Positions 7,962 to 61,497 of a stretch of DNA of 64,000 nt are shown piece after piece. The translations under genes and the position numbers were made by a program. The DNA comes from Candidatus Endolissoclinum faulkneri L5. GTDB taxonomy: Bacteria; Pseudomonadota; Alphaproteobacteria; Thalassobaculales; Thalassobaculaceae. How positions within the stretch are numbered: position 1 is the first letter of the stretch; every line of letters starts with the position of its first letter. The notes beneath the pieces are model-generated. The model was not told where the DNA came from and made no database searches. It was given only the letters and a program-made list of their open reading frames with translations. Where the stretch lies: contig NZ_CP006745.1 in NCBI RefSeq assembly GCF_000510265.1, forward strand, positions 951,654 to 1,015,653, read 5' to 3'.

Positions 7962-8014
7962 CAGTAGTATGTTATGCTTTCTTCCCAAAGAGAAGAAAGC
8001 ATAACATACTACTG
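7962..8014. repeat. Long perfect inverted repeat, 23-bp arms
   Basis: The arms 7962-7984 and 7992-8014 are exactly complementary around a 7-base loop (CCAAAGA). The arms have more G/C than the surroundings. The nearest upstream gene end (metA, 7170) is about 790 bases away and no U-tract follows, so it is not an ordinary terminator of metA. Confidence 0.93.
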
Positions 8015-8429
8015 TTTATGCAAAGAATGTAAAGATAAATTGGTGCAATAGGCACAAAAACTAAGCAACGTGAGTAAATCTCTCCAAAAAATTTCAGATT
8101 GAGCTAAATTTAATACATTTAGCAGGTGCAGGGTTATTACCTAGTTTATTCATAATTTTTCTTTCTGCAATCAGCAGAATACATTTTATTACAAATTACT
8201 TAGCTTTATGATAAATTAAAATTATACAAAAACGTAAATCGATTAGCAATTATTAATAAATATTGTTCTACTTTAAAAGTAATACACAATCAAATAACGA
8301 GCATTATATACTATACTTAAGTACTCTATAAGTTATATCGTATGTGTTACCAGAGATACTCTTAATTATCATATGACTAAAAATATGACCACTAAAGTAG
8401 TTTGGGGCAAATCTACTCCGTAGTCTAAG

Positions 8430-8468
8430 ATAATTAATAACCTTCTTGAAGAGAAAGTTATTAATTAT
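8430..8468. repeat. Perfect inverted repeat, 12-bp arms
   Basis: ATAATTAATAAC at 8430-8441 pairs exactly with 8457-8468. The 15-base loop itself contains CTTC/GAAG. There is no U-tract, and the role is unknown. Confidence 0.6.
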
Positions 8469-8884
8469 GCTTCGATAACTTGTATTGTATTAATTCGTAA
8501 AATAATTCTGTTATTCCTTAGTTCTTGAGGAATTTTAAATCATAAAACCAATAATCGAGAGTCACATTATATAATTTTATAAAAGCTATTGCGCAAAAAT
8601 CCTGGAATGGGTTATCAAAATAAATATTAAGCATTTACCTAAAGTTTTTGCAGTAAAACTTGCTAGGATCTATAATGTCACAACCTTTGTAATGCAATTT
8701 ATTTAAAAAATCTAAAATCAGATCGAGGAAAAATCAACTTACAAAATGTATTTTATACACATTGATTAGATTGGTTCTATAGCCCACAGTGTAATGAAGA
8801 AGTATCCAGCTATTTTGCTAAAAAATTTTAATTTTATATGTATACAAAAAAATAATGGAACAACAGCATAAAGGATAGTTAATC

Positions 8885-9889
8885 GTGAATATGGAATGTG
8901 TTGTTGTCGAAGTTGATACTGCTGCATTGGCAACACTACAAACCGATCGTATCGATAGCTGGCTTACTATGGCTTGCAAGCAGCTAAAAAATTTACCTAC
9001 ACAATTATCTCGCTCCCAGCTAAAGTCTTTGATTAAGCAAGGTAAAGTTAGTGACGGAGTAAAAACAATAACCAGTCCATCATCTCGAGTTAAACCAGGC
9101 GCAAAGTATAGAATTTTTTTAAAACCCCTACCGGAAATCTATCATCCCAAAGCTCAGAATCTACCTTTGAACATCTTATTTGAAGATTCAGAGCTAATAG
9201 TTATAGACAAACCTGCTGGTATGTCTATGCACCCAGCCCCTGGGTCGTTAAACAACACCCTAGTAAACGCACTGATCTATCATTATGGAGATCATTTATC
9301 AAGTATAAATGGGGTACACCGTCCAGGAATTGTACATCGAATAGACAAAGACACATCGGGTCTAGTGGTAATAGCTAAAACAGATACGGCACATGCCGCT
9401 TTGGCTACTTGCTTTGCTGCCCATGATATAAAACGAGTATATCAAGCTATTTGTTTCGGGAATCCAATTCCACTAAATGGCACTGTTAATTTGCCTATAG
9501 GACGCGATTCTAAAAATCGTAAGCGTATGGCTGTGGTTGATCGATACAGTGGACGTTATGCTATTACTCATTATCAGTCGTTAAAACGAATGAATGGTGG
9601 TAGTTTACTAGAATGCCAACTAAAAACAGGAAGAACTCACCAGATCCGAGTTCATTTAAGCCATATAGGGCATCCGCTAATTGGTGATCAACTTTATGGT
9701 CGATACCATAAAGTTGAAATATTAGGTAGATCATCTACTGCACACAACATAGCTCGGCATCTTTCACGTCAAGCTCTGCATGCAACTATACTAGGGTTTA
9801 ATCATCCAGCAACTGGCGAGTCATTAACTTTTAAAAGTCAGCTTCCAGAGGACTTAACGAGACTTCTACAGGTACTGGAGACAACTTAA
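8885..9889 (+). CDS. RluA-family rRNA pseudouridine synthase (RluC/RluD-like)
   Basis: It isomerises uridines in 23S rRNA to pseudouridine. An S4-like RNA-binding domain covers about residues 15-75 (DRIDSWL, then SRSQLKSLIKQGKV), followed by the synthase domain with HRIDKDTSGLVVIAKT carrying the catalytic aspartate, and a LKTGRTHQIRVH motif near the C-terminus. Length (334) is normal for RluC/RluD. The GTG start at 8885 is chosen because AAGGAT at 8871-8876 is correctly spaced for it, whereas the ATG at 8891 is further away. rpoH follows 133 bases downstream on the same strand, a neighbour pair common in Rhizobiales. Whether it is the RluC or RluD orthologue cannot be told from motifs alone. 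Confidence 0.93.
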   Translation: MNMECVVVEVDTAALATLQTDRIDSWLTMACKQLKNLPTQLSRSQLKSLIKQGKVSDGVKTITSPSSRVKPGAKYRIFLKPLPEIYHPKAQNLPLNILFEDSELIVIDKPAGMSMHPAPGSLNNTLVNALIYHYGDHLSSINGVHRPGIVHRIDKDTSGLVVIAKTDTAHAALATCFAAHDIKRVYQAICFGNPIPLNGTVNLPIGRDSKNRKRMAVVDRYSGRYAITHYQSLKRMNGGSLLECQLKTGRTHQIRVHLSHIGHPLIGDQLYGRYHKVEILGRSSTAHNIARHLSRQALHATILGFNHPATGESLTFKSQLPEDLTRLLQVLETT

Positions 9890-10022
9890 ATATACAATCA
9901 AATCCCCATTGAATACGCTAAAATCTAAGAATAGACTAATATGATATACTAAAATGACACTTTATCTATCTGCGTATTAAGCTATGCGGCACTATAAAAA
10001 GTTGTAATCGAAAGGAAATCGC

Positions 10023-10910
10023 ATGAAATCAAACGGCAACACATTACCCACGATTAATACAGAAGGTAATCTATCACGATATCTACAAGAGATACGTAAT
10101 TTTCCAATGCTAGAACCGGAGGAAGAGTACATTTTAGCTAAAAACTGGAGAGAGCAAGGAGATACAGATTCAGCTCATAAGTTAGTAACTAGTCACCTCC
10201 GTCTTGTTGCCAAAATTGCTATGGGTTACCGTGGCTATGGACTCCCTGTTGCAGAATTAATTTCAGAAGGTAATGTTGGCATGATGCAAGCGGTAAAGCG
10301 CTTTGATCCAGAGCGAGGATTTCGTTTAGCTACTTATGCAATGTGGTGGATAAGAGCATCTATTCAGGAATACATTTTGCATTCCTGGTCGCTTGTTAAA
10401 ATGGGCACCACAGCAGCTCAAAAAAAGCTTTTTTTCAATTTGCGTAAGCTTAAAGGACAAATGCAAGCTATTGAAGACCGTGATCTGCCACCAGAAAAGG
10501 TTACAGCAATAGCCAAGCGCCTCGATGTTGCAGAGGCAGATGTAATATCTATGAATCGTCGCCTAACGAGCCCAGATCATTCATTAAATGCTCCACTAAG
10601 AATTGATGGAGAAGGTGAATGGTTAGAATGGCTTGTTGATGACGAGCAAATCAACCAGGAAACTCGCTTAGCTGAGGATGAAGATTTAAATAAACGCTTA
10701 TTACTTCTCAACAAAGCAATGGATAGTTTAAAAGATCGTGAGCGACACATATTGACAGAACGTCGCCTAAGAGATAATCCTACTACACTAGAGGATCTAA
10801 GTCAAGAATATAGCATTAGCCGTGAACGAGTACGTCAAATAGAGGTAAGAGCCTTTGAGAAATTACAAAAGTTAATCAGAAATGCAGCAATGGATCAAAA
10901 AATTCCGTAA
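10023..10910 (+). CDS. rpoH: RNA polymerase heat-shock sigma factor (sigma-32)
   Basis: It directs RNA polymerase to heat-shock promoters. The 295 residues have sigma70 region 2 (LRLVAKIAMGYRGYGLP, then FRLATYAMWWIRASIQEYIL), the RpoH-specific segment SLVKMGTTAAQKKLFFNLRK after region 2, and region 4 with the helix-turn-helix ending in YSISRERVRQIEVRAFEKL. AAAGGAA just upstream at about 10012-10018 is a good ribosome binding site for the ATG. It is the only sigma factor in the window and is apparently intact. A terminator-like hairpin lies about 280 bases downstream. Confidence 0.97.
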   Translation: MKSNGNTLPTINTEGNLSRYLQEIRNFPMLEPEEEYILAKNWREQGDTDSAHKLVTSHLRLVAKIAMGYRGYGLPVAELISEGNVGMMQAVKRFDPERGFRLATYAMWWIRASIQEYILHSWSLVKMGTTAAQKKLFFNLRKLKGQMQAIEDRDLPPEKVTAIAKRLDVAEADVISMNRRLTSPDHSLNAPLRIDGEGEWLEWLVDDEQINQETRLAEDEDLNKRLLLLNKAMDSLKDRERHILTERRLRDNPTTLEDLSQEYSISRERVRQIEVRAFEKLQKLIRNAAMDQKIP

Positions 10911-11189
10911 TATGGCTTGCTCAAAGCAATATCGTGTATTGTCAAAATTTTGTACATTTTAGGCCGGAGAAAAATTATTTTAACGTTAGGTCAAGTTAAT
11001 TGTTGCAAATAGTACCAGCACTTATAATTTTTAGATAATTGTCGCTTTTAATCAAAAATAACATAAAGAAAATATAATTAATTGCTTAAAAGTTATGATA
11101 AATTATAATGAAGTGTTTTTCTGTCATTTAGCATTTTAACAAATTTCGATGTATTTTTTAAGAAATCAGCACAGCTCTTTTTAAGAGCC

Positions 11190-11221
11190 ATAAATCTATT
11201 CCGAAGAATAGATTTATTTTT
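11190..11221 (+). terminator. Possible Rho-independent terminator downstream of rpoH
   Basis: ATAAATCTATTC at 11190-11201 and its reverse complement at 11206-11217 enclose a CGAA loop, followed by a T-rich tail (TTTT from 11217). The stem is AT-rich and it lies 280 bases after rpoH, so assignment to rpoH is tentative. Confidence 0.45.
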
Positions 11222-11793
11222 CCGTATAAAAGCTTGTTATTGCTAAAGTGCGATAAAAAATTTGCGTGCGAGAATGAATTTCTTGTACTACAGATATTCA
11301 AACAGCTTAAAAATTAATCATAAACAATTTTATAAATTATTCTAATTTGCTGTTTCATTTAACGTGAAAAAACATAAAAATAAATTAAAAATCGATTATC
11401 AATGAAGCAAAGACAAGCAGTCGAATAGAAATTATTGCGGTAGTAATGTCAGTATATTCTTAGTTCAAATACAATCAGATAAAATATTTCTTATTATATA
11501 ATGTCTTAATGTTGACCCCAATTGAAATTGAGGCCTATCCCTGTAGTTATATCAGATTTTAACCCAAAATAATTTAATTATTTTTTTCAAAATTGTTTAC
11601 AGAGTAATTTTTAAACAAAATATTTACAAAATATAAGTAAAAATACCATGAGCATGGAGTAATAGATAGATTACTGAATAAATCAGATGCTTTTAATTTC
11701 AATGTGAGCTTAAATGTGATACTTTCACTCTATCGTGCACTTGTTTACGATAAAAAATTTTATTATCTTATTCGCTGACAAATTAATAGATGT

Positions 11794-11826
11794 TTTTTCG
11801 ATTAAACTATTTTTCGATTAAACTAT
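11794..11826. repeat. Two-copy 16-bp tandem repeat upstream of thiM
   Basis: The unit TTTTTCGATTAAACTA occurs twice in direct succession, ending about 50 bases before the thiM start. It could be a slippage product; no binding protein can be named. Confidence 0.6.
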
Positions 11827-11878
11827 AAGAGTAACTCTTTTATCCAAAAATTAATTATAATAAAGACCACTATTAGCT

Positions 11879-12664
11879 ATGCTGGCATCGTATATTGAAA
11901 TTCTGCGACATAAGGTACCATTAGTACAAAATATTACTAATTTTGTTGCTATGAATCTGGTTGCCAATACGCAGATTGCGGTTGGCGCTTCGCCAGCCAT
12001 GGTACATTCAATGGAAGAAGTAACTGAGTTTATAGAAATTGCTGATGCACTGACAATAAATATTGGTACCGTTGATACTGACTGGGGAAAATCAATGCTT
12101 GCTGCTGCATCAATCGCTTCAAAAATAAACAAACCTTGGGTGTTAGACCCAGTAGCTTTGGGTACAACTAAATTTCGCCATCAATTAGCATCGCGCTTAC
12201 TTGCAATTAAACCAACAGTGCTGCGAGGTAATGCCTCAGAAATCATAGCGCTAAATGCTAGCTGGAAGCGACGTGGTAAAGGCGTAGATTCTATTGATAC
12301 CGTGACAGATGCTGAAAATGCTGCTAAGCAGCTAGCAAGATGTATTGCTGGAGTAGTTGCAGTCAGTGGATCAGTTGATTTTATAACCAATGGTGAGCAC
12401 TCAATGCGAGTCTTTGGCGGTAGTGAAATGATGAGTAAGGTAACTGCTATAGGATGCGCACTAACCGGCGTAATCGGTGCATTTATAGTTGATCAACAAC
12501 CTTTTGGTGCTACGATTGCGGCTCACGCTTGCTTTAACTACGCTGGTAGTATTGCTGCTCAATATGCAGCTGGACCCGCTACTTTCAATTCCGCCATGAT
12601 TGACGCGCTATATAGCATAAAACCATCTGCGATTAATAATGAAATTAAAATTGAAGAGGCCTGA
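11879..12664 (+). CDS. thiM: Hydroxyethylthiazole kinase
   Basis: It phosphorylates the thiazole alcohol (4-methyl-5-hydroxyethylthiazole), a salvage step in thiamine synthesis. The 261 residues are full length. Diagnostic segments are VPLVQNITNFVAMNLVAN and GASPAMVHS near the N-terminus, KPWVLDPVALG in the middle and TVLRGNASEI, the usual ThiM blocks, plus the late glycine-rich KVTAIGCALTGVIGAF with the catalytic-region cysteine. No thiE or thiD follows, although thiM is often paired with them. No strong ribosome binding site precedes the ATG. The gene implies use of host-supplied or recycled thiazole. Confidence 0.95.
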   Translation: MLASYIEILRHKVPLVQNITNFVAMNLVANTQIAVGASPAMVHSMEEVTEFIEIADALTINIGTVDTDWGKSMLAAASIASKINKPWVLDPVALGTTKFRHQLASRLLAIKPTVLRGNASEIIALNASWKRRGKGVDSIDTVTDAENAAKQLARCIAGVVAVSGSVDFITNGEHSMRVFGGSEMMSKVTAIGCALTGVIGAFIVDQQPFGATIAAHACFNYAGSIAAQYAAGPATFNSAMIDALYSIKPSAINNEIKIEEA

Positions 12665-13911: not shown

Positions 13912-14121
13912 CTAAGTAGTTGACAAATTACCCGCAAAAACCTTATTCCGACGCGGATCCGATTGTAACTCGTATGAGATTTTTTGGCCCTCATTCAGGC
14001 TATGCATTCCGGACTGCTCAACAGCACTGATATGCACAAAAACATCCGCACCGCCATCTTCCGGCTGAATGAATCCATAACCCTTGGTGGTGTTGAACCA
14101 CTTCACCGTACCAGTGGCCAT
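13912..14121 (-). CDS. Cold-shock domain protein (CspA family)
   Basis: This is a single cold-shock domain of 69 residues that binds single-stranded RNA or DNA and melts RNA structure. RNP1 (KGYGFIQ) and RNP2 (DVFVHIS) are present, and the protein begins MATGTVKWFN as in most alphaproteobacterial Csp proteins. A longer frame exists upstream to 14256, but the start at 14121 is chosen because AAAGGAG lies 9 bases before it and because the extra 45 residues have no relation to the family and overlap the helicase end. It follows the helicase gene by 49 bases, so the two probably share a transcript that ends at 13844-13880. Confidence 0.95.
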   Translation of the reverse strand: MATGTVKWFNTTKGYGFIQPEDGGADVFVHISAVEQSGMHSLNEGQKISYELQSDPRRNKVFAGNLSTT

Positions 14122-14170
14122 AACTGTAGCTCCTTTCATATTAACGTTGATTGGTATCCAATCCGCCAGC

Positions 14171-15631: not shown

Positions 15632-15814
15632 ATGATATCTTTCACTCTACATTAATCCCGTCACAGCAGACGGTATCCAAAAACTTTTTAATTGAGCACG
15701 CCAAACACTTGCTATAATAAACCTATAATGGCACAAAGGCTCAGTAATAAATTTGCAGATTATAATAGCAATATGCTGGCTTCACATTATAAGGTTATAT
15801 TACTGAATTCGCGT

Positions 15815-15935
15815 TACAGCCTCCCTTTATAGATAATCCACTCGTTTAGGGCAACATGGGCCTTGCAGCCAGGATTGCAAGGTAATTCGTAAATCTTGTG
15901 ATTTACTGCACATCATTATATAGTTCTAGAAGAAG
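15815..15935 (-). pseudogene. Possible remnant of a small gene upstream of the helicase
   Basis: This short stretch is much richer in G and C than its surroundings. On the minus strand one frame reads about 25 codons of ordinary composition with two cysteines (PCNPGCKAHVALNEW) to a TAA near 15815, but it has no start codon. A second frame has ATG ATG and 29 codons. Overlapping plausible frames suggest a frameshifted remnant. I do not recognise the family. Confidence 0.25.
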
Positions 15936-16624: not shown

Positions 16625-16693
16625 GGTTCATAATGAAATAAATATTCAAAGTTTATCATACTTAATACTAATGTACACTTTTAAAGTAAAAAA

Positions 16694-19382: not shown

Positions 19383-19429
19383 TAGTTTATATTTTTAACT
19401 TAAAATAAATAAGATAAAAATATAAACTA
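19383..19429. repeat. Perfect inverted repeat, 15-bp arms
   Basis: TAGTTTATATTTTTA at 19383-19397 pairs exactly with 19415-19429 around a 17-base A-rich loop. It lies about 95 bases after the permease stop, so a role at the transcript end is possible, but no U-tract follows. Confidence 0.7.
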
Positions 19430-23397: not shown

Positions 23398-23450
23398 TAC
23401 CAATCGCCATTGCGCGCAATGCTGTGAATTACATGCAATGGCGATTGGTA
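23398..23450. repeat. GC-rich perfect inverted repeat, 16-bp arms
   Basis: TACCAATCGCCATTGC at 23398-23413 and its exact reverse complement at 23435-23450 flank a 21-base loop that starts GCGCAATGC. The arms are half G/C in a region that is mostly A/T. It is about 630 bases from the nearest gene end. Confidence 0.85.
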
Positions 23451-23890
23451 AATAGTAGTACATATTTACTTGTTATTCAAAATTTTTTATTTTATCAATG
23501 ATAAGATCACTTTAATAGCTACAACAACTAACCAAAAATTGAATTATTATACCCAATCTGCTTAAGAAAAAGGGATTTCTATAATAATTTATTGATATTA
23601 AACAAATAATAATTATAATCAACTATAACTTTACAAAAAACAATTACTCTATTATAAAAGTAACCAATTTATTAGAATAATCAAAATAAATATTTTATAT
23701 AATATTTCAGTATTTTTAACGATCATATAATAAAAGAAGAAGATTTGACCAAAAGCACTCGAATATTTTTGATAAGGACAATTGCGCTAAACGCTATTCC
23801 TTCAATAGGAAGGCGGAATTTAGTATATAATCCAACATTGAAATGGTTTTAATTTACTCAGATTGACATTAAAGAATGTTAATCTTTAAA

Positions 23891-23942
23891 CATAAGGTCA
23901 TCATAACTAATATCAATTGATATTAGTTATGATGACCTTATG
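23891..23942. repeat. Perfect 52-base palindrome
   Basis: Bases 23891-23916 are followed with no loop by their exact reverse complement at 23917-23942 (outer ends CATAAGGTCATC and GATGACCTTATG, centre TCAATTGA). It lies about 140 bases beyond the stop codon of rfbC. No T-run follows on the minus strand, so it is not a standard terminator. Confidence 0.93.
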
Positions 23943-24083
23943 TAATAACATTATTAATAAGTTTTGAAATAGGTCAATCATCCTTTTGCGTTACACACGC
24001 TATCAAGTAGACAAACACGATGACCAAGCAATTTAAGCATCAAAATTACGCGATTTAACTATTAACTAATGGTTATTCAAGAG

Positions 24084-24641
24084 TCAAATCGAGAAATAAG
24101 CTGGTAAATCGGCTAATGATGGATGTGTTTTATCCTTCTCAGAAATAGTTAACTTAACGCCTGTCAGCGGCCATTCAATACCTATCGCTGGATCATTCCA
24201 AGCAATTCCCCTCTCGTTTTCCGGAGAATAAGGGGAAGTAACCTTATAGATAACCTCTGTATCTGGTTCCATCGTAATAAATCCGTGAGCAAAACCAATG
24301 GGCACTAAAATTTGATTTCGAGCTACGGATGATATCTCTACACCAACCCACATACCATAGGTGTGCGAGCCTTGGCGGATATCAACTGCTACATCGAAAA
24401 TCCTACCTTTAATGACACGTAATAGCTTGTCTTGAGCAAATCGCGAAATTTGGAAATGCAACCCACGTAGGACACCTGCTGATCTTGAAATGGAATGATT
24501 ATCTTGAACAAAATCAAGATTTATTCCATGATTAGCCAGAGTTATCTTGCTGTAAGTCTCCGATAAATTACCACGAGCATCTATAAATTGCTTTGGTGTC
24601 ATAACCTTAACATCCGTAATGGATAACGATTTTATTTGCAT
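24084..24641 (-). CDS. rfbC: dTDP-4-dehydrorhamnose 3,5-epimerase
   Basis: It converts dTDP-4-keto-6-deoxyglucose to the rhamnose precursor for surface polysaccharide. The cupin protein has FIDARGNLSETY, the QDNHSISRSAGVLRGLHFQ block with the catalytic-base histidine, KGRIFDVAVDIRQGSHTYG, and the late tyrosine in SPYSPENERGI. The ATG at 24641 (185 residues) is preferred over that at 24650: AAAGGAA ends 9 bases before the former but touches the latter. rfbA, rfbB and rfbD are not in the window. It occupies the position downstream of nadD where rsfS and rlmH usually sit in Rhizobiales. Confidence 0.94.
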   Translation of the reverse strand: MQIKSLSITDVKVMTPKQFIDARGNLSETYSKITLANHGINLDFVQDNHSISRSAGVLRGLHFQISRFAQDKLLRVIKGRIFDVAVDIRQGSHTYGMWVGVEISSVARNQILVPIGFAHGFITMEPDTEVIYKVTSPYSPENERGIAWNDPAIGIEWPLTGVKLTISEKDKTHPSLADLPAYFSI

Positions 24642-24747
24642 GGCGCACATTTCCTTTGATACAGTCCAAGCATTAATTAAGATAGTCTAATTTTGCAGAT
24701 CGCAAAATATTACGATCTCTATCGTTGTTGTTCTTCGGTGGTTTTAA

Positions 24748-31736: not shown

Positions 31737-33284
31737 ATGATTACTCGAATTATTATTATGGATTTTGGAAGCCAAGTAACCGAACTGATTGCCCGCCGGA
31801 TACGAAAGTCTGGTGTTTATTGTGAAATTTTTCCATTTAATATTAACCTTAAGGTAATTAAGAATTTTGGTGCTTCTGGTGTTATTTTATCAGGAGGGCC
31901 TTATTCAGTTTACGACAAGAATGCACCCAGAGTACCAAACTCTGTATTTGACATGAAAGTTCCAATCCTTGGCATCTGCTATGGCGCCCAGCTACTATGC
32001 CACCAGCTTGGTGGCATAGTAGCGCAAAGTAAAGAGCAGGAATTTGGTCGAGCCGAAATTACTATCAAGAATAGTTGTCTACTATTCGATAAATTATTGC
32101 CACTCGGTACGATTCAAACAGTTTGGATGAGTCATAAAGATCGTATCACCTCAGTTCCTCCCGGTTTTAAAGCTGTTGCAACCACCCCTTCATCACCGTT
32201 TGCCTCTTTTGCTAACGATCAAAGAAGAATATATGGATTACTTTTTCATCCAGAAGTAGCGCATACGCCTTGTGGAAGTCAGCTTTTGCATAACTTTACC
32301 TATAAGGTTGTTGGGGGAAGAGCTAACTGGAATATGACTAACTATAAAGATCAGGTAATCGCAAAAATCCGTAAGCAAGTCGGAAATGATAAGGTAATAT
32401 GTGGATTATCAGGCGGTGTTGATAGCTTGGTAGCAGCCTTGTTAATTCATAAGGCGATTGACAATCAATTAACCTGCATTTTTGTCGACAACGGTTTGAT
32501 GCGTTCTGGAGAGGCAGAAGAATTCAATCGTTTATTTCGCAAACAATACAATATCCCCCTAATTACCCTTAACGCAAGCGATGAATTTCTGAATGAGCTA
32601 GAAGGAATTGATAACCCAGAAGTTAAGCGAAAAATTATTGGTAAATTATTTATTAAAATCTTTGATTCGGAAGCTAAAAAAATTGGAGGAGCGAAATTTC
32701 TAGCCCAGGGCACTTTGTACACAGACGTGATCGAGAGCGTGTCTAACATTAACGGACCTTTAGTCTCTATCAAGTCTCACCACAATGTGGGTGGTTTACC
32801 CAATGTAATGAAGATGGAACTTGTAGAACCATTGAGAAAGCTTTTTAAAGATGAAGTCCGAGCGTTAGGTCGTGAATTAGGCATACCAGATAATTTAATC
32901 AATCGTCATCCATTTCCTGGGCCAGGCCTCGCTATTCGCTTGATTGGTACTATTACCAAAGAAAAGCTCAGTATATTAATTAGTGCTGACTCGATTTATC
33001 TTGACGAGATCCGTAAAGCTGGACTGTACGATGAAATCTGGCAAGCTTTTGTAGTATTATTACCGATGCGTACAGTTGGTGTGATGGGAGATTCTCGTAC
33101 TTATGATTATGCTTGTGTGCTCCGTGCGGTGACTGCGAGCGATGGTATGACAGCAGATTACTATCAATTTTCACATGACTTTCTCGGCCGCACTGCTACT
33201 CGTATAGTTAACGAGGTACGTGGTATTAATCGAGTAACCTACGACATTACAAGTAAACCACCTAGCACAATTGAATGGGAATAA
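31737..33284 (+). CDS. guaA: GMP synthase (glutamine-hydrolysing)
   Basis: It converts XMP to GMP using glutamine and ATP. Residues 1-195 or so form the class I amidotransferase with catalytic Cys81 in GICYGAQ and the LFHPEVAHT histidine/glutamate. An ATP-pyrophosphatase domain follows with the PP-loop [15 protein letters not shown]. The GMPS dimerisation domain ends in the invariant [15 protein letters not shown]. Length 515 is normal and all parts are intact. With purF at 42.5 kb it indicates that at least part of purine synthesis is kept. The gene stands alone. Confidence 0.98.
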
Positions 33285-45246: not shown

Positions 45247-45289
45247 ATTTACTTACAATATTATTTATTAAATAATATTGTAAGTAAAT
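45247..45289. repeat. Long perfect inverted repeat, 19-bp arms
   Basis: Arms 45247-45265 and 45271-45289 (outer ends ATTTACTTACAAT and ATTGTAAGTAAAT) surround a 5-base centre. It lies about 210 bases beyond the pstB stop, in the position of a transcript end, but no T-run follows on the minus strand. Confidence 0.88.
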
Positions 45290-45498: not shown

Positions 45499-46332
45499 CT
45501 AACCAAAACGCCCAGTGATATATCCCTGGGTGCAGCTATTAATAGGATTAGTGAAAATTGTCTTAGTATCTCCAACCTCGAGTAACTCTCCAAGGTGGAA
45601 AAAAGCGGTACGCTGCGATACACGAGCTGCTTGTTGCATTGAATGAGTAACGATAATAATAGTGAAATTCTCACGCAACTCCTCGATTAACTCCTCAATG
45701 CGAGCAGTAGCAATAGGATCAAGTGCTGAACATGGCTCATCCATCAAAATTACTTCTGGATTTACTGCTATGGCTCTAGCAATGCAGAGGCGTTGCTGCT
45801 GTCCACCTGACAAGTTGGTACCAGGCTGCTCAAGACGATCACTGACTTCTTTCCATAATCCAGCACGATCCAAGCAGTTCTGCACAATCTCATCTAGCTC
45901 GGCTTTACCATAAGCGATACCATGTATACGAGGACCATAGGCGATGTTATCATATATCGATTTTGGAAAAGGATTTGGTTTCTGAAAAACCATACCAACT
46001 CGCGCTCTAAGCTGTACTACGTCAAGAGATGAGTTGTAAATATCATAATCATCTAGCGTAATTTTGCCAGTAACTTTACAAATATCGATTACATCATTCA
46101 TCCGATTTAGACAGCGCAAAAAAGTAGACTTACCGCATCCAGAGGGACCAATTAGTGCGGTTACCTCATTCTTATAGACACTTAAATTAACATGCTTCAA
46201 AGCATGTTTATTTCCATAATAAACGTTGACATCTCGTGATTCAATTTTAGTGAAACGCTTAGCTGACTGTTTTGAGCTCGATAATTTTAGCGCTAAATTA
46301 TTATTGGCTGCTTGCATAGCTATGTTAATCAT
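45499..46332 (-). CDS. pstB: Phosphate ABC transporter ATPase
   Basis: This ATPase drives high-affinity phosphate import through PstCA. It has Walker [30 protein letters not shown] (Q-loop region typical of PstB), the signature [14 protein letters not shown], Walker [14 protein letters not shown] and the H-loop IIIVTHSM. The ATG at 46332 (277 residues) is chosen over that at 46350 because AGAGAG sits 6 bases before it. The start codon then lies 9 bases beyond the pstA stop. No phoU follows. Confidence 0.97.
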
Positions 46333-46343
46333 TTTATATCTCT

Positions 46344-47675
46344 CTACCATCGAAACTCAAATCGTTTGCGCAACAATATAGCGGCTGCGTTCATTAAAAC
46401 TAAAAAACCAAGCAAAACCATAATACCTGCTGATGTCCGTTCAACAAAAGCTCGCTCTGGACTATCGGACCAGATATAAACCTGAACCGACATAACAGTA
46501 GCTGGATCGGTGAAAGTTCGCGGAATATCTACGATAAAAGCGACCATGCCAATCATTAACAATGGAGCGGTTTCTCCCAAAGCTTGTGCCATACCGATAA
46601 TTGTACCACTAAGTATCCCAGGCATCGCCATAGGCAGCACGTGATGAGTAACAACCTGCAGAGGCGAAGCACCAAGGCTAAGAGCGGCTTCACGAATTGA
46701 GGGTGATACAGCCTTCAAAGCAGATCTGGCTGCAATAATTATAGTAGGCAATGTCATCAATGCTAAAACTAAACCACCAACTAACGGGGCCGATCGTGGT
46801 AAACCAAAAAAGTTTAGAAAAACAGCTAGACCTAACACACCAAATACAACAGAAGGAACGGCCGCTAAGTTGTTAATATTAATCTCAATAAAATCAATAA
46901 ATCTATTATTTGGGGCAAATTCCTCCAAATAAATAGCAGACATTACTCCAAGTGGAAAAGAAATTAATAAGGTAACAGTCAAAGTTAAAATTGAACCAAT
47001 TAATGAACTATAAATACCGGCTTCTTCAGGATTTCTACTGTCACCAGTAGTAAAAAAGTCAGCATTAAATACCGAATGAATATGACCTTCTGATTGTAAT
47101 TGATCATGCCAGTTGATTTCAAGATCCTTTATTCTGCGATCACTTTCCGGTAAATCGCGATTAATAAAACCCTTAGATAAGCTATCCCAATCATCAGAAA
47201 GTTTTAACAAAACCTTCTTGGTTGTTCCAATTAGAGAAGGATTGCTCAATACCATGTCACGCAAAACCAAGTCAGCTTTTGGTGCAATCATCCCGTAAAG
47301 CATACGAATTTTACGACGATTTCCAACAGCTGCGGGAAACTTTTCTTTTAGAGCATTATGAATCAATGCTAAATAATTTGCTTGTTTTAACTTTACCTCT
47401 TCAAGTGTACTCCCATCGGGATTTAACACTTCAGCACTAAATGTTATATTTAGCTCAACTTTGTGTAACCAAAAGGCTGAATAGCCTTTAGATACAATAC
47501 TGCTCAACAAAATGAGCAAAATTATCCCAGCGACTCCCACGCTAGCAATGCCTAAAATACGAAAACGTCGTTCGCTAGCATAACGTTTAGCAAGATGTGA
47601 ACCGCTGAAATCTGGTAAACGAATAGTTTGACTAGATGCAGATTTATTTAAAGAAGTAGAAAGTGTATTATTCAT
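46344..47675 (-). CDS. pstA: Phosphate ABC transporter permease PstA
   Basis: This is one of the two inner-membrane permeases of the Pst system. The ATG at 47675 gives 443 residues; it overlaps the pstC stop by 8 bases and has CAGAGAG upstream, whereas the upstream frame to 47726 lies inside pstC. After the first membrane helix there is a periplasmic region of about 170 residues before the permease core, the DUF3333-type extension seen in alphaproteobacterial PstA. The core has the permease loop [20 protein letters not shown] and six predicted helices. Confidence 0.95.
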
Positions 47676-49056: not shown

Positions 49057-50051
49057 TGATCCTGGCCCCCCAAGAGCTATCCCGCTCTGGCACTATAGTC
49101 AGTGTTGGATAAAGGGTCTAAAGAAAAGATATTTTAATAATATTATAGCGGGATCAAAGAACTGGATACAAAGATTCTTGATAAACAATAAACAGTAATA
49201 AACGATTAAACAAAAATTTGTAACTGTAAACAGCATGTAATCAAGTCAAGTAATTCCATACTACAAATGTAATAAAAATTAAATTTTTAAGATAAAAATT
49301 TTTATGAGTATAATGTCATTTTGACAAGACCTAGTATTGACATATATCCATTTAAAAAAGTTTGGCATTGGCGTAACCCACTGCTGAAGGATAGGAATTC
49401 TTTAACTATTTAGTATCTACTTACATGAATCCAAATCCGGCCAAATACTAAGTTAGCAATCATTACTTAGCTGTTGCGTAGTAATAAATGCCTAAGGATA
49501 CCAACAAAATCTACGCATCGATTAAATTGCTAAGCAAATCAATGATTAACTCTTGAATTCATTGGAATTAATCTTTACTCAACAGCATAATAATCCAGCT
49601 AATTTTTGAGATTAATCACACTTAGATGAATAGGTTTCAGGCAGCACAACTAAGATATTTCAAACAAAGAAACATGATATGCCTACGCTTAAGAAGGTCT
49701 CCGAAAAGTTTACTTAAGTCTCTAATTCCTATACCATTAGGACACCTTGAGAAATAGGCAACAACCAAATTTCATAATCTCCTCTAATAAGATACAAATA
49801 TTTAATTTATCAAAAGCCTCCTGACTAACACTTTACAGCAATATATTGCTGTAAAGTGTTAGTCAGGAGGCAGATTAAGCAAAAATTCATTATAATCAGT
49901 ATCATTATAACAAAGTCAACCGGTTAAAATTAACTGTAAGTTTCTTCAAAAGAACTTATCATAAACATCTAATCTCAATTCATAACATAAACACTTCAGT
50001 GCAAGATAATATACAAATCCTAAATCAAAATACCTGCTAGTACGATTTACT
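49057..50051. other. 1.0-kb gap inside the pst cluster
   Basis: Between pstS and pstC, both on the minus strand. It is gene-free, contains the 56-base perfect palindrome at 49816-49871 and an inverted TGTCA/TGACA pair near 49313-49325. Whether the pst genes share one transcript across this gap is unclear. Confidence 0.6.
49816..49871. repeat. Perfect 56-base palindrome in the pstS-pstC gap
   Basis: Bases 49816-49843 are followed directly by their exact reverse complement 49844-49871 (outer GCCTCCTGAC and GTCAGGAGGC). It is nearly half G/C within AT-rich DNA. It begins about 180 bases past the pstS stop. In RNA it would fold into a very stable hairpin that could separate pstS expression from pstCAB, but no T-run follows. 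Confidence 0.93.
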
Positions 50052-51086
50052 TTATGATTCTTTCGAATCTATGCTTGATTCAATTGTTTTAAACCTATGA
50101 GCTAATTCTGATAGCGGAATTAGACCATTAATAGTTAGATATCCTTCCTTGCCAACGGCTTCATCACTAATAAACTCAGATACATATTCTTTTATACCAG
50201 GTATAAAATCGATATGGGCATTTTTTATGTACAAAAATAGAGAGCGTACAATGGGGTAAGAACCGTTAGCGATCGAATCAAATGTTGGAGCAATACCTTC
50301 GATAAAAGAACCATGTATCTTATCAGTATTTTGATCAAGAAAAGAAAAGCTAAAGATTCCTATTGCAGACGGGTTTGATTCTAGCTTACGAACAATTAGA
50401 TTATCATTCTCACCGACTTCGATAAACTTACCATCTTCACGCATAGAGGCAAAGACCTGCTTAAACTTACTCTGATCATCATTAGACAATTTATCCAAAA
50501 ATTCGAACTTTTTAGCGCCTATTTTCATTACCTGTTCAACGAAGGCATCGCGAGTGCCGGAAGTTGGCGCAGGACCAAGCACCTCAATTTTGATATCAGG
50601 CAAATTTGTGTTGATCTGCGACCATTTAGTATATGGATTAATGACTAATTTATCATTAAGTGGTATTTTCTTCGCTAAAGCTAAGAAAATATCCTTATAA
50701 CTGAGATTAAATATCTCAGCTTGTTTAGAATTAGCTAATACAATACCATCAAAGCCAATCTTGATTTCGTTAATTTTCCTTACGCCATTTTTGCCACACA
50801 AAGTAATCTCTGTATTCTTGATCTGACGAGATGAGTTAGTTATATCTGGATATTTAACACCAATACCTTGACAAAAAAGTTTTATGCCAGCACCTGAGCC
50901 GGTTGATTCAATCACTGGAGTTTTAAAGTCCGTCTTTTTAGCAAAATTCTCAGCAACTAGCGTAGCAAATGGAAACACCGTCGAAGAACCAACTATGCGA
51001 ATTTGATCACGAGCCTGAACAGGAGTCGTGATCGTAGTAAGAAATAATCCAATAATCACTGATAACTTGCTCAATGATAGAATCAT
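50052..51086 (-). CDS. pstS: Phosphate-binding periplasmic protein PstS
   Basis: This is the periplasmic phosphate receptor of the Pst system. The mature protein starts near RDQIRIVGSSTVFPFATLVAENF and has IESTGSGAGIKLFCQG for phosphate binding and TSGTRDAFVE in the second lobe. The ATG at 51086 gives 344 residues with a clear signal peptide ending VQA. The longer frame to 51146 adds 20 residues that do not look like a signal, and it has no ribosome binding site. It is separated from pstC by 1.0 kb. Confidence 0.95.
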   Translation of the reverse strand: MILSLSKLSVIIGLFLTTITTPVQARDQIRIVGSSTVFPFATLVAENFAKKTDFKTPVIESTGSGAGIKLFCQGIGVKYPDITNSSRQIKNTEITLCGKNGVRKINEIKIGFDGIVLANSKQAEIFNLSYKDIFLALAKKIPLNDKLVINPYTKWSQINTNLPDIKIEVLGPAPTSGTRDAFVEQVMKIGAKKFEFLDKLSNDDQSKFKQVFASMREDGKFIEVGENDNLIVRKLESNPSAIGIFSFSFLDQNTDKIHGSFIEGIAPTFDSIANGSYPIVRSLFLYIKNAHIDFIPGIKEYVSEFISDEAVGKEGYLTINGLIPLSELAHRFKTIESSIDSKES

Positions 51087-51837
51087 TATATAATCCAACT
51101 TAAAATTTGCAAAACACAATGGCATAAATTGCTTGCCAAATAGCATACAATTAGCAGTTTACTCAAGAAGTAATCGTAATGTATTATTCAGAATCTTTTC
51201 ACGAGTGGCGTTTTATAATCTAAATCATGCTAGCTGTCAAACAGCAGATTTTTAAAGATATACTTAAAACAAATTCTTCATAATGGCAGCTCAGAAATCA
51301 GTATGCATTATGTAAAACATTTTTATAATTTTAGCTTATCCCCCAAGCATTTATTATAACATTAATCGAGCAAAATTAAGCTAATGGAGCTTGTGGAAAA
51401 TAGACTACTTTGTCGACTTATAGAATTTAGTTTATTTACTGAGAAATGTATTAATCATAAAATTAATATTCGTATTCGAGATAAAATGAATTAATTTTTA
51501 AAAGCCTAGAATGTTTTTCTAATAGCAATAACAAGTTATTTTTAATAGCAATCTTGAACATGGTGCGCAGTATTAATATAAAATACTACTAACTTAGTAT
51601 AAAATACTACTAACTTAGTAGTTGCTACAAAGAAGGAGGATAAATTAGCGACACTACGAAAATATCTATAAGACCCTTACTAACGTAATCCTGCACTCTC
51701 ATTTAAAGCTTATCCAATTTACCATATCATTAGGCGTAAGATTTACAACTAATCGACTGATTAAAGTATTTCAACAAGTACTGTAAATCGCGCTATACTA
51801 TCAGTCATTATCCCAACTACAACAAACTATTAAGATT
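51087..51837. other. 0.75-kb gene-free stretch
   Basis: It lies between pstS and the metal-binding protein gene. A two-copy 21-bp tandem repeat is at 51577-51618. The pstS promoter should be at the left end but is not resolvable; no Pho-box pair is evident. Confidence 0.55.
51577..51618. repeat. Two-copy 21-bp tandem repeat
   Basis: The unit TATAAAATACTACTAACTTA plus G occurs at 51577-51597 and 51598-51618, followed by TAGT, which pairs with ACTA of the unit. It is probably recent slippage. Confidence 0.8.
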
Positions 51838-53625: not shown

Positions 53626-53648
53626 CTTTTAAATCTCCAGCAAACTTA

Positions 53649-55819: not shown

Positions 55820-56911
55820 ATGCATATCAATAAGTCCATTGCTATGGCAATCATTTTAGTAGTTATCGCGATTGCCTGGATCATTTCTGGTCAAATATTC
55901 AATATAAGAACAACGATAACTCACCACGATGATAAGATCTCTGATTCGTTCACAAATACTTTAATGCGCGTTGGTATCAGTAAAACATCTGCCAGTGCAT
56001 TTATTCCTTCCATAATAATATCTGGACATACTGAAGCTGCGCGAATCATTACTCTGAAGGCTGAAACTGCTGGTCGAGTCGTAGCCACTCCAATATCAAA
56101 AGGATCAAAAGTCTTAAAAGGAGCAGAAATAGTACATATCGATGTATCTGATCGTAATGCATTAATGGATAAAGCTAATTCTCGCATTAGCCATCGTCAA
56201 ATAGAATACAACGTAACTTCTAACTTAGTAGCTAAAGGATTTAAAGCAAAAACAGCCCTGGTCGCTATTAAAGCTGAGCTAGATGCAGCAAAATCTGAAC
56301 GCCGAACGATTGAAATTGATCTTGAACGTACACGAGTACGTGCCCCAATTCGCGGCGTACTTAACGACCTTATGGTTGGAGTAGGAGACTATTTGACTGT
56401 GGGAGATGCTGTCGCAAAAATAATAGATCTTAATCCGCTACTTGTAGTAGCGCAGATCTCCGAACGTCAAGCGGCACTGATTGAAATCGGTATGTCAGCC
56501 CGTGTTCATCTGTCTACCGGAGCAAAGCTTACTGGCATAGTAAGCTATATCTCAAACGTTGCGGATGAGAAAACTAGAACTTTCCGTATTGAAATCAATG
56601 TTGATAATCCTGCCAGTAAATTTGGCCATGGCTTCACAGCAGAAATAAATATTGATTTACCATCAAAAAACAGTCATCGAATAAGTCCATCGATATTCCG
56701 ACGAGAAAAATTAGGACAATTGGGGGTGATGATCGTCGACAAAAATAATCAAGCTCACTTCATTCCAATCACAATTATAGGAACTGATGATAAGGGAACT
56801 TGGGTTAGTGGTCTGCCCAACAATACAAGAGTTATCGTCGTCGGGCAAGATATGGTCAAAGAAGGCGAGATCGTAGAACCAGTAGAAACCAGCAATGGAA
56901 CGATTTCATGA
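55820..56911 (+). CDS. RND efflux periplasmic adaptor (HlyD/MFP family)
   Basis: This membrane-fusion protein of 363 residues links the RND pump to an outer-membrane channel. There is an N-terminal membrane anchor at about 10-27. The lipoyl-like half-motifs are LKAETAGRVVATPISKGSKV (about residue 74 on) and VRAPIRGVLNDLMVGVGDYL; between them is a short helical hairpin of about 60 residues. The beta-barrel part contains RVHLSTGAKLTGIVSYIS and DEKTRTFRIEI. AGGA sits 9 bases before the ATG. The RND gene starts inside the last codons (ATGA overlap), so the two are coupled. No TolC-like gene is in the window. Confidence 0.93.
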   Translation: MHINKSIAMAIILVVIAIAWIISGQIFNIRTTITHHDDKISDSFTNTLMRVGISKTSASAFIPSIIISGHTEAARIITLKAETAGRVVATPISKGSKVLKGAEIVHIDVSDRNALMDKANSRISHRQIEYNVTSNLVAKGFKAKTALVAIKAELDAAKSERRTIEIDLERTRVRAPIRGVLNDLMVGVGDYLTVGDAVAKIIDLNPLLVVAQISERQAALIEIGMSARVHLSTGAKLTGIVSYISNVADEKTRTFRIEINVDNPASKFGHGFTAEINIDLPSKNSHRISPSIFRREKLGQLGVMIVDKNNQAHFIPITIIGTDDKGTWVSGLPNNTRVIVVGQDMVKEGEIVEPVETSNGTIS

Positions 56912-59900
56912 AAGCCTTAATTTCCTATGCTTTATTGCACAACAGAACCATATTATCTCTTCTTTTGCTAATCTTAATTGCTGGCAGCGCTTCTTATATA
57001 GCAATTCCGAAAGAGTCTGATCCTGACATCAATATACCAATAATTTATGTATCCATCACACTCGAAGGCATAGCGCCGGAAGATTCAGAGCGTCTTTTAT
57101 TACAACCTATGGAAGAAGAGCTTCGTGCTATCGCTAGCATAGAAGAAATGCGGTCAACTGCTTATGAAGGTGGTGCTAATATTACATTAAAATTCAATGC
57201 AGGTTTTGATCCTGTCCAGGCTATAAATGATGTCAGAGAGAAAGTTGATATTGCTAAGCTAGATTTGCCTAAAAATGCAGATGAACCGAGAGTGCATGAA
57301 GTCAACTTCTCACTCTTTCCAGTCTTAATTGTTACTTTATCTGGTAATGTTGATGAGCATATACTCCTGCAAACATCACGCAAACTGCAAAAGCTGGTGG
57401 AAGAGATTCCTTCAGTTCTTGCAGTCCATCTTGTCGGTTATCGTGAAGAAGCAATTGAAGTTTTGATTAATCCACTAGAACTAGAAAGCTACAATTTGCA
57501 AGCAAATGACCTGCTGGAAATCTTTCAGCGTTCAAACAACTTAATTACTAGCGCAGCTCTAGACAATGGTACCGGCCGCTTCCCTATTAAAATGCCAGGC
57601 CTATACCAGAATATAACAGATATTCTTAATCAGCCGATTAAAGCTAACGGAGATGCAATTGTTCGAATTCGCGATATCGGTACAGTTCATCGTAGCTTTA
57701 GGGATCGCCAAACCTATGCGCGTTTTAACGGACAACCAACAATTGCTCTCGAAATCTCCAAACGCTCAGGGCAAAACATCATTGATGCTACAGAGAATAT
57801 TCGTGCTGTAGTAAATAATGCAGAAAAAGATTTCCCGGCAGGGATCAGATTAAATTTTAGCCAAGACAAATCTAACAACATTCAAAATATGCTGAACGAC
57901 CTGCAAAATAATGTTATAACTGCCACTTTGCTAGTAATAACCGTTATTATAGGAGCCTTGGGTATTCGTAGCGCCTGGCTAATTGGCATGGCGATTCCTG
58001 GTTCATTATTGTTAAGTATCTTAGTGCTGTCTTCTCTGGGTATTACTATCAATATCGTTGTCTTGTTCAGCCTAATTCTAGCAGTTGGTATGATGGTTGA
58101 CGGTGCGATTGTAGTTACTGAATTTGCCGAACGCAAAATAATATCGGGTGTTAGTAGACCAAAGGCTTATCTTCTGGCTAGTCAGCGGATGGCCTGGCCA
58201 ATAATAACTTCTACTGCAACAACTATAGCTGCTTTTTTCCCATTGCTATTTTGGCCTGGTCTAGTCGGAGAATTCATGAAATTTTTGCCAATCACACTAT
58301 TAACAACATTGCTAGCTTCACTGCTAATGGCGTTAATATTTATACCAGCTTTAGGTGCACAAATTGGAGGAACGATTACCCTAAACAGTTCTTATAGTCT
58401 ACAGATTGCTGCTTCTGAAACTGGCGATCTAAATAATATCAAAGGCTTAACTGCTTGTTATTTAAAATTACTCAAAACTGCCTTACGCATACCTAAAATA
58501 GTTTTACTAATATCAATTGCAACTTTGATTGCAATTCAATATTATTATATCAGCTACGGTAAAGGAATAGAGTTCTTTCCTAATGTTGAGCCTGACAATG
58601 CTCAAATATATGTACATGCCAGAGGTAACCTTTCAATAGAAGAAAAACTTAGTCTTGTCCTGCCCGTCGAGCAGATAATTATGAAGTTAGGAGGGCTTAA
58701 ATCAATTTATACCTGTATAGGAGCAACTAAACAAAGTGAAGAAGGGGAGTTGTCTAACGACATAATTGGCAGCATCCAAGTAGAATTTATTGATTGGCAA
58801 CAAAGACTACCAGCTAAACAGATTTTAGCTAAGATTGCCAGACAGACTTCTAGTCTGCCTGGCATTGTTGTCGAGACGCGCACAGAGGGTAATGTGCTAA
58901 CAACAGGTAGTCCGGTGCAAATACAGCTTTATTCTAGAAATCGCGAAGCATTGGAAGAAGCAGCAAACGATATGCTAGCAAAGCTTCATACAATACCCGG
59001 TCTGCTAGCTCTGGAAGATACTCGTGATTTTCCAGGTATCGAATGGGAAATTAGCATTAATCGAGAAAAAGCCGCAATATATGCAGCTGATATGATGCTA
59101 ACTGGTCAGTACGTACAGCTGATTACCAAAGGATTAAAAATTAGCGACTATCGTCCAAAAGATAGTGATAAAGAGATCGATGTTATCTTGCGTTATCCAG
59201 ATTACTACAGGACTTTTGAGCAGCTCGATCAAACTCGCATGAAAACTTTAAATGGTCTAGTCCCAATCTCAAACTTTGTAGAACGTAGGGCTAAAGCAAA
59301 AATCGGTAAAGTACGTCGTATCGATACTTACCGAGCAATTACAATTAAGGCGGATGTACTAGATGGTGTACTGCCAAACGACAAAGTGATGGAAATACGT
59401 GATTGGCTTGTTAGCAAGCCGCTACCACAGAGTGTAAAAGTAGTCTTCAAAGGCGAAGAGAAGAAACAAAAAGAAGCACATAATTTTTTGATAAAATCAT
59501 TTGGAATTTCCATATTTGTCATGGCTATCATTTTGGTTACTCAATTTAATAGTTTTTATTCTGTCCTAGTAACTCTATCGGCAGTAGTTATGTCAACTAT
59601 TGGGGTAATGTTTGGATTAATAATTACCAAATCCCCATTCAGTATTGTCATGAATGGTATTGGGATTATAGCGTTATCTGGAATAGTAGTGAATAACAAT
59701 ATTGTGTTAATCGATACTTTTGACAAAATTAAGTCAAATTGCTCAGATACCAGAGAGGCGATCCTACGCACCGGAGCTCAAAGACTACGCCCAGTATTAC
59801 TTACTACTCTTACCACAATTTTAGGGCTGCTGCCGATGGTTATGCGTACTAATATAGACTTTATGTCACGCCACATAAATATCGGTGCACCATCCACTCA

Positions 59901-60021
59901 GATATGGGTATCATTAGCTAATGCTATTGTCTACGGACTGGCTTTTTCTACAGTGCTGACTCTATTAGTTACTCCATGTGCTTTGATCTTCAAAACTAGC
60001 ATAGATAAAAATATGCCATAA
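56908..60021 (+). CDS. RND-family efflux transporter (AcrB-type)
   Basis: This inner-membrane proton-driven exporter of 1037 residues has the usual duplicated topology: one helix, a large periplasmic loop, a helix bundle, then the same again. Landmarks are IPKESDPDINIPIIYVSITL near residue 34 and the helix 4 region AVGMMVDGAIVVTEFAER. Asp398 is kept at the first proton-relay position while the second position, Asp in AcrB, is Gly399; this is common in a widespread alphaproteobacterial RND subgroup. The gene is full length and one of the longest in the window. Substrates cannot be predicted: drugs, bile salts, lipids or host compounds are possible. Confidence 0.95.
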   Translation: MKALISYALLHNRTILSLLLLILIAGSASYIAIPKESDPDINIPIIYVSITLEGIAPEDSERLLLQPMEEELRAIASIEEMRSTAYEGGANITLKFNAGFDPVQAINDVREKVDIAKLDLPKNADEPRVHEVNFSLFPVLIVTLSGNVDEHILLQTSRKLQKLVEEIPSVLAVHLVGYREEAIEVLINPLELESYNLQANDLLEIFQRSNNLITSAALDNGTGRFPIKMPGLYQNITDILNQPIKANGDAIVRIRDIGTVHRSFRDRQTYARFNGQPTIALEISKRSGQNIIDATENIRAVVNNAEKDFPAGIRLNFSQDKSNNIQNMLNDLQNNVITATLLVITVIIGALGIRSAWLIGMAIPGSLLLSILVLSSLGITINIVVLFSLILAVGMMVDGAIVVTEFAERKIISGVSRPKAYLLASQRMAWPIITSTATTIAAFFPLLFWPGLVGEFMKFLPITLLTTLLASLLMALIFIPALGAQIGGTITLNSSYSLQIAASETGDLNNIKGLTACYLKLLKTALRIPKIVLLISIATLIAIQYYYISYGKGIEFFPNVEPDNAQIYVHARGNLSIEEKLSLVLPVEQIIMKLGGLKSIYTCIGATKQSEEGELSNDIIGSIQVEFIDWQQRLPAKQILAKIARQTSSLPGIVVETRTEGNVLTTGSPVQIQLYSRNREALEEAANDMLAKLHTIPGLLALEDTRDFPGIEWEISINREKAAIYAADMMLTGQYVQLITKGLKISDYRPKDSDKEIDVILRYPDYYRTFEQLDQTRMKTLNGLVPISNFVERRAKAKIGKVRRIDTYRAITIKADVLDGVLPNDKVMEIRDWLVSKPLPQSVKVVFKGEEKKQKEAHNFLIKSFGISIFVMAIILVTQFNSFYSVLVTLSAVVMSTIGVMFGLIITKSPFSIVMNGIGIIALSGIVVNNNIVLIDTFDKIKSNCSDTREAILRTGAQRLRPVLLTTLTTILGLLPMVMRTNIDFMSRHINIGAPSTQIWVSLANAIVYGLAFSTVLTLLVTPCALIFKTSIDKNMP

Positions 60022-61497
60022 AATACAGATTTGCCTATCTAAGCTAGATTAAGTATTACATTAATTATGGTACACTCGATAAGTTGATTAAAATCATAAT
60101 CGTATTCTGACTATAAGCTTCTATAGCTTGTTACAAGTATAATGCAATAAAGTATTAAATACAATCAGCAAAAGTCTTTAGTTGTGATGCGATATTTTCA
60201 GAGTAATTGTACCTAAGTCAGTTAAAGTATAGCTATATTGCAATTAATTACGGCTTAACGTTTATAGTTTGTATTATAAAATAAGAATATAATCATAATT
60301 TATTTTATTAAAACAACTTTTAGAACACTAATTGTATCTATCTTAACACTGAAGATAAAGAATCAGGCAGTATATTCATTTTTAGTGTATGAACTATAAT
60401 TCATTTTCAACATTAACCTGTTATCTAAAGAATAATAGATTCAATCTATTTGAAATATTAGAATAAAATAGCTAGTAGTTAAACTAGTAGTTAGTTTAAT
60501 TAAAGCATTTAATCAAGCTAACTGTCATTCTAATAACAATTTAGATTCATTTTATTTATCAAATAATCTTCCAGCTAAACCCCAAGGCTATGAGCAAATG
60601 TAATTTCGCGATTATAGTTGTAAAAAACAGCGTCAATTAACTTTATGACATACATTGCTAACTTTAAATCGCCTACAATATAATCAAAAGCAGATTCAAC
60701 TATTAATTGAATCTGCTTTTGATTATATTGTAGGCGATTTAAACAGCTAGATTCTAGCTAAAAATAATCTATATCTATAAGATTATGTAATTATCATAAT
60801 TAAAACAAGTAATTAAGATCCATAATAAAAGAAAATAATAGTGCTACTAATTATAGAGTAAAAACATAACACTACAAATTCGGTGCATAGAAAAACAAAA
60901 AATCAATAAAATTAACCAACTTTTTTATAAAAAATGATAATTTAAAAAAATTTTTAATGAATTATTCTTAACCTAAGAATAAAATGTAGATTGGCATTTT
61001 GCTAATTTATAATAAAATAATAAGTTAAAATTTATTAGACAAGTATTCCATTTAACGGAAATGCCCAGTATTTATTTTTACCAGAAAAGAAATAAGATTT
61101 GCCTCTTCACCAAGAGTTCATATAATTTTTTAGTGTCTTAAAAGAGTAAGCGATATAATCTAAGCAGATTAATTTTTTAAAAATATATTTTTTACTTAAA
61201 AAGTAACTATAATAGTGTATTATAAATTAAGTTGTTTTACTAAAAATTAGTAATTATTTATTCAGATAATATATCAAGGTACATGACCTAATATTCCTGC
61301 AATAACAAAACAATCATATACTACAAATTATTTTTAGTGATAACCCGTATTGACTTACATTATATTTCTATTAACACGATTATTAATTCCGAACTACTTA
61401 ATTCCAAGTAAAATTAGGGATATTCATCTTTACAAGATAGTGCTAGAAAAGTAGCTACTCACTTCATTATGTAGATTGCTAAATTATTGAGATTAAA
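60022..61497. other. 1.5-kb gene-free stretch between convergent genes
   Basis: It contains the longest inverted repeat of the window (60663-60743) and a small hairpin at 60962-60982 (TTATTCTTA/TAAGAATAA). No coding remnant is recognised. Confidence 0.65.
60663..60743. repeat. Very long perfect inverted repeat, 37-bp arms
   Basis: Arms 60663-60699 and 60707-60743 are exactly complementary over 37 bp around the 7-base loop CTATTAA (outer ends TTTAAATCGCC and GGCGATTTAAA). It lies between convergent genes, about 640 bases past the RND stop and 755 bases past the phhB stop, too far for an ordinary shared terminator. No protein-coding content. Confidence 0.95.

Follow-up and report, generated by a model that had tools for sequence, protein, structure and literature searches.

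Long perfect palindromes in the non-coding DNA of Candidatus Endolissoclinum faulkneri as probable products of quasipalindrome template switching

The question raised by this locus is how long, perfect and mutually unrelated inverted repeats come to stand in the non-coding DNA of a decaying genome, and whether they are made by mutation or kept as RNA hairpins. The stretch analysed (64 kb, referred to here as the window) is located on the single 1,518,636-bp contig of Candidatus Endolissoclinum faulkneri L5, whose sister strain L2 has 1,481,191 bp; both belong to a genus that also includes free-living relatives of 5 Mb. According to the available part of the genome paper (PMC3851785), this alphaproteobacterium lives as an intracellular symbiont in the tunicate Lissoclinum patella, the two genomes (1.51 and 1.48 Mb) have a coding density of 57% and heavily degraded intergenic DNA, the strains split 6-31 million years ago, and mutSLH has been lost.

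A sequence-only reading of the window had pointed to five intergenic sites with arms of 37, 28, 26, 23 and 19 bp. Three of these lengths (37, 28 and 23 bp) stood, and the other two had to be corrected, from 26 to 27 and from 19 to 21 bp. Six further repeats have arms of 15-16 bp. The features, to none of which a strand applies, are as follows:

60663-60699/60707-60743, perfect inverted repeat, arms 37 bp, loop 7
49816-49843/49844-49871, perfect palindrome, arms 28 bp, loop 0
23890-23916/23917-23943, perfect palindrome, arms 27 bp, loop 0
7962-7984/7992-8014, perfect inverted repeat, arms 23 bp, loop 7
45247-45267/45269-45289, perfect inverted repeat, arms 21 bp, loop 1
23398-23450, perfect inverted repeat, arms 16 bp, loop 21; L2 site imperfect
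63804-63848, perfect inverted repeat, arms 15 bp, loop 15; L2 site imperfect
19383-19429, inverted repeat, perfect arms 15 bp, loop 17 (alternatively 20 bp at 95%, loop 7)
5764-5818, perfect inverted repeat, arms 15 bp, loop 25; L2 site imperfect
1191-1227, perfect inverted repeat, arms 15 bp, loop 7; L2 site imperfect
31991-32023, perfect inverted repeat, arms 15 bp, loop 3; within ORF 31737-33284

All five longest palindromes fall outside ORFs of at least 90 aa, as their description as intergenic implied, and the G+C content of their arms ranges from 10 to 43%. With loops of up to 30 nt, the window holds 11 repeats with arms of at least 15 bp and 20 with arms of at least 12 bp, which bears out the mention of further, shorter-armed repeats. 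Twenty dinucleotide shuffles in 1-kb blocks produced none with arms of at least 15 bp and 0.65 with arms of at least 12 bp, arms of at least 14 bp being absent from every replicate; the long arms are thus indeed beyond chance. The longest structure spans 81 bp (60663-60743) and follows an AcrB-type transporter gene (56908-60021), whose 3' end is 642 bp away; it matches only itself in a whole-genome search, and its flanks align poorly to L2. This transporter gene is a single ORF of 1037 aa in L5 and is split by a frameshift into 221 + 831 aa in L2, the same split being given in the available part of the genome paper (P856_600 versus A1OE_1073/1074; PMC3851785). The palindrome at 49816-49871, downstream of a phosphate-binding-protein-like gene (50052-51146, minus strand) and 181 bp from its 3' end, likewise has itself as sole match in its own genome, and at its aligned L2 site the palindrome is absent. 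That at 23890-23943 is found 141 bp past the 3' end of an rfbC-like gene (24084-24650, minus strand), its left arm aligning with L2 and its right arm largely missing there, and that at 45247-45289 lies downstream of an ABC-transporter ATPase gene (45499-46350, minus strand), 210 bp from its 3' end, with 8 of 21 positions pairing at the L2 site. For the repeat within an ORF (31991-32023), 13 of 15 positions pair in L2. The claim that the arms are not copies of one element agrees with the self-matches of the two of five loci searched genome-wide and with the listed arms sharing no sequence. An Rfam search of the window returned one tRNA and nothing else.

Is this a peculiarity of the window? Statistics were obtained from evenly spaced samples: sixteen 20-kb stretches were taken from each strain, to which the window and the corresponding sister region were added. 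In the 384 kb of L5 thus covered, 25 perfect inverted repeats have arms of at least 20 bp, and in the 400 kb of L2 there are 19, with 0 expected; every one of them lay outside ORFs of at least 100 aa, which occupy 53% of the DNA; DNA without coding constraint makes up about 46% of the sequence. The loops of the sampled palindromes are nearly all of 0-13 nt, and very few exceed 40. The excess over chance therefore runs, in these samples, throughout both genomes, and extrapolation gives ~70-100 long palindromes per genome.

A separate observation concerns perfect short direct duplications (16-45 bp), of which there are 36 in 384 kb of L5 versus 5 in 400 kb of L2. Those of L5 are all outside ORFs and mostly head to tail with 0-3 bp of extra match (for instance L013 9601, 45 bp; L018 2893, 30 bp; window 51577, 23 bp), and they may reflect either a strain-specific mutational process or an artefact of joined overlapping contig ends.

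In the comparison of both strains, palindrome positions are mostly not conserved. Of the L5 palindromes with arms of at least 14 bp, 44 map to L2, and for two of these the centre of an L2 palindrome in the same size range is no more than 25 bp away, with 0.76 expected. In one of these, a perfect palindrome is present in both strains (L018 14044-14083 in L5, L034 16918-16951 in L2) with two base pairs changed on both sides; it is situated upstream of a mutM/fpg-like gene (start MPELPEVE) and may be either a conserved regulatory hairpin or a core rewritten repeatedly, and an Rfam search of L018 12000-18000 found nothing. In the other, each strain has a palindrome at the 3' end of the same gene (L011 19522-19567 and L027 18954-18999), the core stem TAAAATA/TATTTTA being common and the perfect outer arms different; in L5 the outer arm appears to extend into the last codons of the gene. 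A third shared site, outside the mapping filter of the 44-palindrome count, is that at 7962-8014, where the core stem TTTCTTC/GAAGAAA is again common and the perfect outer arms differ (L5 CAGTAGTATGTTATGC-TTTCTTC; L2 TTACTTG-TTTCTTC(T)). At the sister sites one finds either imperfect hairpins or a shared core flanked by different outer arms.

This pattern could be quantified in 48 alignable intergenic palindromes of both strains. At the sister site, the fraction of positions able to pair was 0.55 for pairs 1-4, 0.50 for pairs 5-8 and 0.40-0.41 beyond, and the inner minus outer difference was 0.125 (bootstrap 95% 0.054-0.195, n=48). When simulations were run on the real L5/L2 alignments, a seed of 6-8 bp followed by overwriting of one arm gave 0.53-0.57, 0.48-0.49, 0.39-0.45 and 0.41-0.42 from the loop outward, the gradient being absent from overwriting without a seed; a second, outer seed was not seen. 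Pure insertion was discarded as the main route, as simulated insertion left a largely gapped arm in 41-57% of cases versus 10% observed and 9-11% for seed plus overwrite; a few loci do resemble insertions. Length-neutral overwriting of one arm fits on average, not at each locus, and with arms of at least 17 bp alone the difference between inner and middle pairs is weaker (one-sided bootstrap 0.035). The fit of the overwrite model to the pairing profile, a statistical one on alignments at ~69% identity for which several arm and flank cut-offs were tried, may be called good but not final. Coding palindromes did not clearly show one arm with more differences than the flanks, so these cases are not decisive, and no trend for the leading or lagging strand appeared among 26 cases. 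Three marks of quasipalindrome template switching were found: short-looped inverted repeats in numbers far above chance, an imperfect hairpin in the relative with the inner stem already there, and, on average, one arm overwritten without change of length. Sister-strain comparison and simulations hence support the idea, already raised for the window, that template switching turns imperfect palindromes into perfect ones.

All these observations (the excess over chance, the near-confinement of long palindromes to non-ORF DNA, the short loops, the non-conservation, the seed-plus-overwrite footprint and the absence of certain genes in profile searches) can be integrated in a model that we regard as probably correct, in which the palindromes are mutational products of DNA replication by quasipalindrome template switching, and gene losses probably allow their number. 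In this model, the process would start from a short chance inverted repeat, with ~6-8 bp on each side of a loop usually of 0-13 nt, lying in single-stranded DNA at the replication fork. The nascent 3' end would fold back, pair on its own strand and be extended outward, one arm being written as the inverted complement of its partner, after which the nascent strand would go back to the proper template with net length unchanged, an imperfect hairpin thereby becoming a long perfect palindrome in a single step. The products would persist only in DNA free of coding constraint and would be removed by mutation or deletion, leaving a stock mostly young and strain-specific. The loss of ExoVII, MutS and RecA, which may ordinarily hold back such events or mend the mismatches they leave, with no detectable SbcCD hairpin nuclease, probably permits the number observed.

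The evidence on these genes is the following. In profile searches, xseA (encoding ExoVII), recA and mutS had no match in L5 or L2, apart from a short mutS-like remnant with stops in L2, and were present in four of four congeners. Since xseA scored above the cut-off in 273 of 289 sampled alphaproteobacteria, its loss is unusual. The genes recJ and addA are intact in both symbionts, and the combination of missing recA and xseA with intact addA and recJ is an unusual repair state for a 1.5-Mb genome. For sbcC and sbcD, nothing above the cut-off was found in six genomes (both symbionts and the four congeners); SbcCD loss was consequently rejected as a derived cause, the free-living congeners also being without a match. 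In E. coli, ExoI and ExoVII limit quasipalindrome template-switch mutations. There, recA loss alone leaves template switching unraised (PMC6357072). Long palindromes were absent from the sampled stretches of other xseA-negative alphaproteobacteria, which have little non-coding DNA, and ExoVII loss alone as a sufficient cause is thus not supported. A causal role of the ExoVII, MutS and RecA losses in palindrome number is put forward as a hypothesis only, because recA loss alone is ineffective in E. coli and because other xseA-negative genomes, as sampled, do not show the palindromes.

It could well be, although on balance we lean against it, that template switching proceeds here at ordinary rates and is seen only since nearly half of the genome is unconstrained. 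This alternative bears on the cause of the palindrome number and not on the mechanism. The density of arms of at least 15 bp, 2.6-2.8 per 10 kb of non-coding DNA in these symbionts, is only about twice the ~1.4 of G210, the best-sampled control, which has a small genome, is xseA-positive and carries 5 such palindromes in 34.6 kb of non-coding DNA. Against ordinary rates, arms of at least 20 bp number 42 in ~359 kb of non-coding DNA in the symbionts versus 0 in that of every control, a weak contrast given that the control regions are short and probably constrained. The sampled stretches that yielded none came from free-living congeners and other small alphaproteobacteria. Because control genomes hold little non-coding DNA, the contrast is in part one of the amount of unconstrained sequence.

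A second possibility, which we hold to be unlikely, is that the palindromes are old, were inherited from the common ancestor and have been kept perfect in one strain while decaying in the other. Sister pairing, at 0.40-0.55, does lie above the ~0.3 of unrelated sequence, and mismatch-free stems could also come from continual correction. However, pairing drops outward from the loop, whereas shared decay would be expected, by reasoning rather than by simulation, to leave an even profile, and the outer arms agree with the overwrite simulation. As to stem age, constant birth with slow neutral decay would lead to roughly equal mismatch classes. Stems of at least 20 bp with 0, 1, 2 and 3 mismatches numbered 35, 13, 4 and 7 (both samples pooled), and because most long stems are without mismatch, they must be young or repeatedly corrected; the proposal of recent origin or active correction fits this surplus. 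From ~0.7 mismatches per 44 bp versus ~0.2 substitutions per site and lineage (flank identity 0.69), mean stem age can be roughly placed near 8% of the strain split, repeated correction giving the same pattern.

The third alternative, that the palindromes are selected RNA hairpins (terminators or 3'-end protectors) substituting for ordinary intrinsic terminators, had been proposed in the sequence-only reading and now appears distinctly improbable. Three of the five longest window palindromes sit 141-210 bp past a gene 3' end, and at two L5 sites L2 has a palindrome in the corresponding position; the first of these is at the 3' end of a gene, and the second shows two paired compensatory changes. 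Nevertheless, with gene 3' ends defined by ORFs rather than annotation, arms of at least 15 bp fell within 60 bp of a 3' end in 4% and 8% of cases (two strains) versus 6% of random non-coding positions, and the shared sites are not significantly above chance (2 of 44, against 0.76). U-tracts accompany 2 of 49 and 2 of 48 palindromes in the two strains, against a background of 5-6%, so that the lack of a U-tract first remarked for most window sites extends to the entire set. The arms are A+T-rich, and the G+C-rich stem of an intrinsic terminator was not found among the five longest window arms. A general terminator role for the set is therefore not supported; individual palindromes near gene ends could act on transcripts.

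Lastly, that the repeats belong to a family of mobile palindromic elements or are artefacts of assembly is hardly credible: palindromic repeat families are known in bacteria (PMC3733652, available part) and L5 was assembled from 101-bp reads (PMC3851785, available part), but the arms are unrelated and both loci tested are single copy, without the sequence common to copies that defines REP, RPE or MITE families, the arms overwrite homologous sequence rather than adding to it, two separately assembled strains show equal density, and at 81 bp even the longest structure would fit within a single read, which makes an artefact look unlikely from the sequence.

Quasipalindrome template switching thus appears to have left a real genome-wide footprint of a known mechanism (PMC8794818, PMC7202029), apparently mostly non-functional. 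More tentatively, and with considerable doubt, we suggest that with ExoVII, MutS and RecA gone and no SbcCD, hairpin-primed switching is now a leading mutational force, by which palindromes are continually born, rewritten on the same cores and lost, so that neutral DNA mimics selected RNA structure in its long stems and paired compensatory changes. No description of a comparable genome-wide natural case was found in the literature searched. The genome paper (PMC3851785) deals with the same genomes, their degraded intergenic DNA and the mutSLH loss, and palindromes are not mentioned in its available part. A survey of bacterial inverted repeats (PMC10434271) reports that high-frequency bacteria are more often endosymbionts; it counts all inverted repeats, and its available part contains no sister-genome test of origin. 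The coding palindromes of Nematomorpha mitochondria (PMC6649704) are similar in that many unrelated long perfect inverted repeats occupy one small genome, but they lie inside conserved protein genes and reach 284 bp, whereas those of the symbionts are almost only outside ORFs and reach 37 bp.

The closest parallels come from template switching itself, whose palindromes have so far been known from reporters and single loci. In E. coli quasipalindrome reporters (PMC7202029, PMC6357072), as here, one arm is rewritten from the other to perfection, loops are short, and switching is independent of RecA, the symbionts being without recA; those reporters were designed, in contrast to the natural long palindromes spread over two genomes and known here from sequence alone. 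Two sister genomes, each with about a hundred or fewer long palindromes and with candidate suppressor genes missing, could yield rates, seed lengths and turnover in nature. In the template switching described for RNA hairpins (PMC8794818), also as here, one event makes a long perfect stem or several paired changes, and the core is kept while the stem changes; those cases are mainly RNA genes and microRNAs, and those of the symbionts are in DNA without apparent function. The symbiont genomes also caution that in A+T-rich degraded genomes covariation alone is no evidence of functional RNA.
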